Assembly: GCA_017591395.1 (NCBI GenBank)
Contig: WEDG01006501.1
Location: forward strand, 16,468-80,467
DNA: 64,000 bases
Reading direction: 5' to 3'
Source of the DNA: Schistocephalus solidus
Taxonomy: Eukaryota > Platyhelminthes > Cestoda > Diphyllobothriidea > Diphyllobothriidae
Shown here: piece after piece, positions 49,429-50,596 of the stretch
Position numbering within the stretch: position 1 is the first letter of the stretch
Layout of the letters: each line of letters opens with the position of its first letter
Position numbers and translations under genes: made by a program
The notes under the pieces: generated by a model
Told to the model about the DNA's origin: nothing
Seen by the model: the letters and a program-made list of their open reading frames with translations, nothing else
Database searches by the model: none

Positions 49429-49540
49429 TATATATATATATATATATATATATATATATATATATATATATATATATATATATATATATATATATATATA
49501 TATATATATATATATATATATATATATATATATATATATA
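49429..49540. repeat. (TA)n microsatellite, about 112 bp
   Basis: Pure TA dinucleotides, the longest such run here. It directly abuts the left end of the 354-bp hammerhead array and is probably the insertion site. Confidence 0.98.
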
Positions 49541-49612
49541 CGTGTTTCCCCGATGTTTCTGCTGCTGCGTGACACAGTAACGTGGCGTCCGGCTCCTGAG
49601 TGGGTCCCCCAG
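49540..49612 (-). pseudogene. Hammerhead ribozyme of unit 1, inactivated
   Basis: The core box reads CUCAGGA (49600-49594), so the catalytic G5 is C. Stem II is GCCGG/UCGGG, whose closing pair is G-G instead of G-C. The cleavage site and part of stem III are cut off by the boundary with the TA tract. The GAAA box remains. Confidence 0.75.
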
Positions 49613-49879
49613 CGTTTTCTATGCGGTTTCTGGTATATGAACTCCAGAGAATAATCGGGGAAATTATTTCTGAAATTATTAAGTGCAAGACATGGAGTCA
49701 GGTGATTCGGACATGACTTTTTAGGGTCAGACCCGAAATTTCAATGAACATTTGGGTCGAAGACAATCAACCACTGTGGAATAACCACGTAATACCCATT
49801 CTACAAACAAGTATTACTACAAGTAGTATGAATCTTATATGGCAAAGACAGTATACCGTACTTCCGACATAGGTACTAG

Positions 49880-49975
49880 CTAAAAGCCCAAACACGTGTT
49901 TCGCCGATGTTTCTGCTGCTGCGTGACACAGTAACGTGGCGTTCGGCTCCTCAGTGGGTCCCCCAGCGTTCTCTA
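49880..49975 (-). ncRNA. Type I hammerhead ribozyme, unit 2 (core intact)
   Basis: Read on the minus strand: stem I 5' strand ending CCCA (49958-49955), CUGAGGA (49954-49948), stem II GCCGA (49947-49943), a 35-nt loop 2, UCGGC (49907-49903), GAAA (49902-49899), stem III as the palindrome ACACGUGU (49899-49892), H17 = U (49891), cleavage, then stem I UGGG (49890-49887), which pairs with CCCA. The closing pair of stem II is the conserved G10.1-C11.1, and A15.1-U16.1 is present. The loop of stem II is unusually long and stem III has no hairpin loop, so activity is more likely in dimeric transcripts. Confidence 0.75.
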
Positions 49976-50233
49976 TGCGGTTTCTGGTATATGGACTCCA
50001 GAGAATAATCGGGGAAATAATTTATGAAATAATTAAGTGCAGGACATGGAGTCAGGTGATTCTGACATGACATTTTAGGGTCAGACCCGAAATTTCAATA
50101 AACATTTGGGTCGAAGACAATCAACCACTGTGGAATAACCACGTAATACCCATTCTACAAACAAGTATTACTACAAGTAGTATGAATCTTATATGGCAAA
50201 GACAGTATACCGTACTTCCGACATAGGTACTAG

Positions 50234-50329
50234 CTAAAAGCCCAAACACGTGTTTCGCCGATGTTTCTGCTGCTGCGTGACACAGTAACGTGGCGTTCGG
50301 CTCCTCAGTGGGTCCCCCAGCGTTCTCTA
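50234..50329 (-). ncRNA. Type I hammerhead ribozyme, unit 3 (core intact)
   Basis: Identical to unit 2 in every core position: CUGAGGA (50308-50302), GCCGA (50301-50297), UCGGC (50261-50257), GAAA (50256-50253), ACACGUGU (50253-50246), H17 = U (50245) and stem I UGGG/CCCA. The predicted cut is between 50245 and 50244. Confidence 0.75.
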
Positions 50330-50596
50330 TGCGGTTTCTGGTATATGGACTCCAGAGAATAATCGGGGAAATAATTTATGAAATAATTAAGTGCAGGACA
50401 TGGAGTCAGGTGATTCGGACATGACTTTTTAGGGTCAGACCCGAAATTTCAATGAACATTTGGGTCGAAGACAATCAACCACTGTGGAATAACCACGTAA
50501 TGCCCATTCTACAAACAAGTAGTACTACAAGTAGTATGAATCTTATATGGTAAAGACGTTATACCGTACTTCCGACATAGATACTAGCTAAAAGCC

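Follow-up and report, generated by a model that had tools for sequence, protein, structure and literature searches.

Ends of hammerhead retrozyme copies in a tapeworm genome suggest copying into TA-repeat DNA by a Penelope-type enzyme

The locus and its hammerheads

The window (the whole stretch of 64,000 nucleotides analysed here) comes from an assembly of 603.7 Mb in 8019 contigs. An earlier sequence-only reading of this DNA took its source to be a flatworm, and the COX1 gene of the same assembly (contig C6369) agrees: it is that of a diphyllobothriid tapeworm, reads through with the flatworm mitochondrial code and has Dibothriocephalus dendriticus as its best named cluster (95%), with AAA read as N at positions which we take to be conserved N. 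Exon-like pieces of a glypican gene lie on the plus strand at 11925-12581 (Pfam, 2e-12) and 59522-59881 (4.4e-4, below the cut-off). Between these two pieces sits a retrozyme array whose ribozyme RNA is antisense to the glypican gene. The window also holds a (TAG)124 tract (13152-13522) and a two-copy tandem of 124 bp (18571-18827). The retrozyme and Penelope-like element (PLE) features, with their TA tracts, are collected in Table 1.

Table 1. Retrozyme, PLE and TA-repeat features of the window
Feature	Position	Strand	Remarks
PLE-like reverse transcriptase (RT) piece	41000..41512	+	named via related pieces with RVT_1 and GIY-YIG
305-family (tRNA-like) retrozyme unit with its own hammerhead	43466..43754	+	C3 43685, predicted cut after 43717; (TA)n follows
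(TA)30	43755..43814		between 305-family unit (left) and PLE 3′ end (right)
PLE 3′ end, long (‘tail’) form	43826..43939	-	ends at TA tract to its left; 83% to PLE 3′ region of locus L024
PLE 3′ end, short form	44191..44264	+	ends at TA tract 44259-44291; 82% to PLE 3′ region of L024
3′ end of another PLE type	44539..44657	+	ends at TA tract 44652-44688; 85% to PLE 3′ region of L046
305-family fragments, both orientations	48182..48482		adjoin TA tract 48482-48528
(TA)56 tract	49429..49540		directly at RNA-sense 3′ end of the array
354-bp retrozyme array, three units	49540..50596	-	RNA order unit 3, 2, 1; 5′ end at unit position 3, 3′ end at 351
Unit 1, broken ribozyme	49540..49890	-	CUCAGGA at 49598; 3′ end truncated at TA tract, lacking the last 3 nt
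Type I hammerhead, unit 2/1 junction	49879..49967	-	C3 49954, U16.1 49892; predicted cut 49891 (U17)/49890
Predicted 354-nt RNA freed by two cuts of a trimer transcript	49891..50244	-	predicted from sequence and descriptor
Type I hammerhead, unit 3/2 junction	50233..50321	-	C3 50308, U16.1 50246; predicted cut 50245 (U17)/50244
GIY-YIG-like endonuclease piece of PLE	56791..57330	+	named via related pieces

The sequence-only reading had described three tandem copies of a 354-bp unit, and TRF recovers the same array (49540-50596, period 354, 3.0 copies, 97% matches), in which no stop-to-stop frame reaches 110 aa. On the minus strand, both inner junctions carry the type I hammerhead core, with its three stems arranged as in type I. 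Stem I is CCCA/UGGG, followed by CUGAGGA; stem II is GCCGA/UCGGC, extended by a long arm; then come GAA, stem III (ACAC/GUGU) and U17, and the cut is predicted before UGGG. The boxes, U17 and cut position given earlier (49891/49890) are thus correct on the sequence. We used a descriptor demanding CUGANGA, at least 4/5 pairs in stem II, GAA, A15.1-U16.1 and one more pair, H17 and 4/4 pairs in stem I. It matches the window's minus strand twice, both times within the array, and the plus strand once, in a different repeat at 43685. A chance ribozyme is ruled out by dinucleotide shuffles, which gave 0 matches in 4000 for the window unit and 1 in 4000 for a typical genomic unit. The claim that the array encodes hammerheads therefore stands for units 2 and 3 and fails for unit 1, where G5 is changed to C (plus-strand 49598), so that the truncated unit is not a third ribozyme.

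A search with the Rfam type I model had been proposed as a check. It does find the hammerhead at one of the two junctions (49885-49960), with only 18.8 bits against a cut-off of 34 (E 0.39 in 2.2 kb); a scan of the window accordingly gave no Hammerhead_1 match at the gathering score. Four further loci score 22.8 bits at best, again below 34, and none of the 73 candidates scored in the genome (out of 91055) passes the cut-off, nor does any in the control genomes. The cut-off is a criterion for detecting hammerheads and not a structural one, and the long arm of stem II is the likely cause of the low scores. As sole detector, Rfam is too insensitive for the hammerhead of this family, with nothing over the cut-off in the window or among the scored genome candidates. 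The Rfam scan called no tRNA-like part in the 354-bp unit, and it likewise overlooked the window's 305-family unit.

Stem III of the 354-bp unit is a perfect palindrome without a true loop, in which it differs from the animal non-LTR retrozymes as described in the parts of PMC7229834 drawn on here (the scope of all our citations of that paper). The satellite retrozymes of newt and axolotl, treated in the same source, have units of 330-350 bp and a weak stem III with a palindromic loop, and are active as dimers. These vertebrate elements resemble the tapeworm family in unit size and palindromic stem III, a likeness of description and not of sequence. Stem III of the tapeworm ribozyme may work as a two-pair hairpin or, as in these amphibian relatives, as a dimer (PMC7229834). 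Left out of the sequence-only reading were the (TA)n beside the array, the second retrozyme family and the PLE ends in the window, and the ends of arrays, from which the probable mode of copying can be read.

Genomic copies and their ends

The ribozyme core, the copy number, the preferred 3′ sites, the adjoining (TA)n and the head-to-head order can all be read directly from the genomic copies. A search for the core motif (23 specified bases, up to 2 mismatches) finds 7,924 matches genome-wide and none in the reversed control, which supplies the copy count that the earlier reading had called for; at one core per unit, the family would make up about 0.46% of the genome. We analysed 50 loci, namely the 35 best-scoring matches (the window being one of them) and 15 taken in order of position, a sampling that favoured well-conserved copies. 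Loss of the core boxes in other copies had been named as grounds for refutation. The core is kept: all scored positions are intact in 143/190 distinct ribozyme regions (75%, with 62% expected from other sites), and mean variation is 0.024 at the core and 0.039 at other sites, both comparisons being between copies that are not independent. Compensatory changes in the stems were not found within the family, whose copies are too alike. At position 17, C is present in 337/347 full units of the first 35 loci and T in 4; the window's U17 is a rare variant.

Animal non-LTR retrozymes consist of tandemly repeated, non-coding units, 170-400 nt long, that contain a type I hammerhead and are dispersed in many copies (Cervera and de la Pena 2020, PMC7229834). 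The 354-bp family shares with them its non-coding tandem units, type I hammerhead, many dispersed copies and co-existing PLEs in the same genome. Small, non-coding, tandem and dispersed units with a full-core hammerhead support the animal retrozyme identity first suggested from the window.

The ends of the arrays are strongly polar. Among 74 RNA-sense 3′ ends in the 50 loci, 27 lie within 5 nt of unit position 55 and another 21 equally near position 237 (binomial 1.6e-39), and (TA)n follows directly after 43 of these 48. TA is found at 4 of the 26 off-site 3′ ends, which include six at positions 349-354, where the unit was cut for analysis and breaks and true ends are indistinguishable. The 5′ ends scatter: of 67, one is near 55 and one near 237, with TA at 10. 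Genome-wide, the junction with (TA)n occurs 1920 times at site 55 (reversed control 74) and 1018 times at site 237 (reversed control 20). Control site 257 carries the same CCAUAUA yet is unused, with 72 (TA)n junctions against 105 in the control, that is, at background; complementarity to TA as the sole basis of site choice is ruled out. In the predicted fold of the circle, a fold only about 1.8 sd below shuffles, site 55 is exposed in a hairpin loop and site 257 largely buried.

Could the family be no more than a satellite whose ribozyme is a relic, its copies spread as DNA by unequal exchange, eccDNA or microsatellite-mediated recombination? Arrays reach 26 units, some arrays are degenerate and inverted, and some flanks are common (75 3′ flanks fall into 63 clusters), all as a satellite would have it. 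We nevertheless consider this very improbable, given polar ends with two preferred 3′ sites and scattered 5′ ends, a control site (257) that is not used, a core intact in three quarters of the distinct copies, and a comparable rule for the other units and for PLEs (below). Plain satellite growth leaves the polar ends unexplained.

The window array itself ends at a rare 3′ site, position 351, which has 5 genomic matches against 3 in the reversed control; three of the five have 0-1 mismatch, and in one of these (L060) the motif occurs outside any array. On the 5′ side of the window array, TA is absent. Since it starts at position 3 and stops at 351, both within 3 nt of predicted cut sites, it might derive from a linear trimer cut by the hammerhead at both ends and not from a circle. 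We find this doubtful, for no other array among the 50 loci has both ends there, only 5/67 5′ ends fall at positions 1-6 (some being artefacts of alignment where units meet), and site 351 is also a junction in a head-to-head locus, L059, with the 5′ end elsewhere. As a general rule, ending at the cleavage site is rejected: the window array does so, but few others do.

In three loci (L010, L027 and L045), a common sequence ending in or near GGTCGAACT(GCC) is joined to the 5′ end of 354-bp arrays, at unit position 21 in L027 and L045. The two may perhaps be a composite that is copied together, or the product of a template switch.

Arrays are often arranged in pairs. The 50 loci contain 19 head-to-head joints (5′ to 5′, with the 3′ ends outward) and a single direct tail-to-tail joint (3′ to 3′). 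Eleven of the 19 have both ends at main sites, and ten of these combine 55 with 237, the other being 55/55 (p 0.002-0.005 against random use); the remaining eight are unclassifiable, seven having one off-site end and one lying at the edge of its locus. Eight more pairs come from junctions less than 1.3 kb apart with 0 mismatches, among those listed (the first 100 per site) on contigs up to C851, and are placed from junction positions alone and not from locus sequence; C31 was left out because it equals L030. Six of them (C7, C225, C241, C789, C807 and C842) are mixed, C682 is 237/237 and C851 is 55/55. Overall, 16/19 pairs are mixed, where random use would give 45-49% (p 0.0006-0.002). Microhomology of at least 2 nt is present at 8/19 head-to-head joints (chance 0.158, p 0.006). 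The head-to-head geometry is that of twin priming, in which a single break is primed from both its strands. Were the two ends obliged to use different sites, a single monomeric circle would be the simplest template.

Other hammerhead families and Penelope-like elements

The pattern recurs in similar form in another hammerhead family and at the ends of PLEs; a third hammerhead family gives thin evidence of it. The flanks of the 354-bp arrays contain a 305-bp unit with a hammerhead and a tRNA-like part (repeated, for example, at L039:2512-3427 and L016:2972-4043) and a 232-bp unit with a hammerhead (L032:510-1430 and L034:3496-4601). By the descriptor, the hammerhead of the 305-family copy in the window is complete. 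In the 305 family, 10/31 array rows have their 3′ end at position 149 and 3/31 at position 39, with TA after 12 of these 13; 7/31 rows stop at the unit boundary where the unit was cut for analysis. The 305-149 junction occurs 3247 times in the genome (control 0). For the 232 family the evidence is thin (5 ends): 3/9 rows end at 48 and 2/9, from one locus, at 168, and the array in L034 is head-to-head with its 3′ ends at 48 and 168. All six preferred sites of the three families are within the top 16% of predicted unpairedness in their circles.

The tRNA-like part scores 30.8 bits with the Rfam tRNA model in L016 (cut-off 29) and 24.4-24.6 elsewhere, so that one unit in five is over the cut-off; Aragorn finds no tRNA gene in L039 2400-3600. 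In one locus (L012:1123-1531), a 305-family unit passes straight into a 354-family array at unit position 5, in the same orientation, as would be expected from a template jump close to the RNA 5′ end. The Smalpha repeats of Schistosoma carry a hammerhead, and the 305-bp family, a flatworm hammerhead repeat with a tRNA-like part, resembles them by description and not by sequence. In the portion of PMC8490949 used, Smalpha is SINE-like and 335 bp long.

The PLE pieces of the window are named through related pieces. Pfam gave no RT or GIY-YIG match for 41000..41512 and 56791..57330, and a PDB search returned nothing for one and a single unrelated weak match for the other. Among related loci, L044 has RVT_1 at 1.4e-6 (28.6 bits, just under the cut-off of 29.6) and L050 has GIY-YIG at 25.8 bits (cut-off 22.6), with three other GIY-YIG matches under the cut-off. 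RT-like pieces are present in 5 loci and GIY-YIG-like pieces in 10 (12 loci in all), and the two lie next to each other, as in one PLE, in L024 and L044. The PLE piece of L024 has its best match in Schistocephalus solidus (84% over 75%). Genome-wide, the RT piece of the window is matched by 150/150 scored candidates, out of 12569 first-look candidates, and match spacings of about 2.5-2.8 kb are consistent with tandem PLEs.

Like the retrozymes, these elements end at TA. A TA tract lies within 900 nt downstream in 12/12 PLE rows with a readable flank, in loci that had been chosen for arrays; for the three PLE rows of the window there is none within that distance. One PLE 3′ end joined to (TA)n occurs 242 times in the genome (control 0). 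Exact copies of this end number 41 among 100 matches listed (830 in all), and at least 28 of the 41 pass directly into TA. The 3′ ends come in a short form and a form about 38 nt longer, both directly before TA in L050, with few copies compared. In the window, a long and a short end stand head-to-head between TA tracts 43755-43814 and 44259-44291, the same architecture as in the retrozyme arrays of this genome. The tract-side sequence of the long end (43826..43939) matches L026 and others, where TA also follows, and the short end (44191..44264) matches the ends near TA in L026 and L028.

The window has seven TA tracts of 14 nt or longer. Six of them adjoin sequence resembling a retrozyme or a PLE, and for five of the seven the adjoining end also has TA after it elsewhere; no match reaches the seventh tract (16491). 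TA may thus be made on insertion rather than found. That is, (TA)n could be a 3′ tail added or expanded by the RT during insertion and not the target, with the other steps as we propose below. In keeping with a tail, 18/28 unpaired arrays have no TA on their 5′ side; the other ten do, against a background of 0.7-1.3% (duplications inside (TA)n being indistinguishable), and the RNA beside sites 237, 149 and 39 is not (UA)n. Weighing these, we regard the tail as unlikely, and (TA)n as the probable priming site.

Twin priming is known from L1, and LINE-type machinery, with no part for PLEs, might mobilize the 354-bp retrozyme. LINEs have indeed been named as candidates for animal retrozymes (PMC7229834). 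This we judge decidedly improbable. The 3′ ends of PLEs in this genome are at (TA)n and, in the window, also head-to-head; moreover, internal starts, use of both strands and an AT-rich target match the behaviour of the assayed PLE (PMC11167929, cited throughout for the parts drawn on).

A proposed route of insertion

In those assays, reverse transcription by the purified PLE protein of Anolis (Poseidon PAc) begins within the RNA, at two adjacent sites that share no homology with the DNA; the protein cleaves and extends both DNA strands, with a preference for AT-rich targets (PMC11167929). The Anolis element has tandem copies and an optional ‘tail’ of 30-40 nt equal to the stretch between its two start sites, and its hammerhead is dispensable for insertion in vitro (PMC11167929). 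Two internal start sites, both strands and an AT-rich target make it similar to the tapeworm footprints, and by analogy this match to assayed behaviour points to a PLE enzyme as the probable partner. PLEs are autonomous and encode RT and GIY-YIG, whereas the 354-bp retrozyme is non-coding and would borrow its machinery.

We think it likely that the array represents a single insertion of a non-autonomous retroelement, in which a PLE-type RT copies circular or multimeric RNA made by the hammerhead, primed by (TA)n ends. Retrozyme copies would be transcribed and their transcripts cut by the hammerhead into 354-nt units, which, to judge from relatives, may be circularized or left as multimers. A PLE RT/endonuclease would then open both strands of a (TA)n tract, the identity of the enzyme and the order of the steps being our inference. 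Each DNA 3′ end would prime cDNA synthesis at one of two fixed points within the RNA, 55 (in the predicted exposed loop) or 237, and reverse transcription could round the template many times. Finally, the two cDNAs would be joined 5′ to 5′, often at short microhomologies. Tandem arrays would result, either single or in head-to-head pairs, with the RNA 3′ ends turned towards (TA)n.

A more far-reaching version, which we put forward tentatively and hold to be somewhat short of even odds, is that a single circle offers two docking sites for a dimeric PLE RT. When a (TA)n tract is broken, one of its DNA 3′ ends would occupy site 55 and the other site 237 on that circle, and both would roll round it, leaving rolling-circle cDNAs placed head-to-head. 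Unrelated circles (of 354, 305 and perhaps 232 nt) would have arrived by evolution at this two-site arrangement, and a sizeable fraction of the genome's (TA)n microsatellites might be occupied or made in this way.

The retrozyme class is already known. A circular RNA template has been proposed for it, with PLEs as strong candidates, while the primer and the enzyme were left open (PMC7229834). That account of animal non-LTR retrozymes gives optional TSDs; the tapeworm arrays, in contrast, have two preferred internal 3′ sites at (TA)n and are often head-to-head. Our literature search, limited mainly to open-licence papers, found no (TA)n-primed retrozyme insertion and no hammerhead joined with Diphyllobothriidae, and within it the two-site (TA)n footprint was not found in print.

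The ends of the genomic copies suggest that retrozyme RNA enters TA repeats as copies made by a PLE-type enzyme starting at two set positions, a route previously only proposed. The tapeworm footprints thereby link the proposed circular RNA/PLE route (PMC7229834) with PLE biochemistry (PMC11167929), and they turn the question of how animal retrozymes insert, and whose RT they use, which PMC7229834 left open, into one with a testable answer. If the proposal is right, circular RNA would be a natural template of target-primed reverse transcription, and this genome would provide a genome-scale counterpart to the in vitro work on PLEs (PMC11167929).
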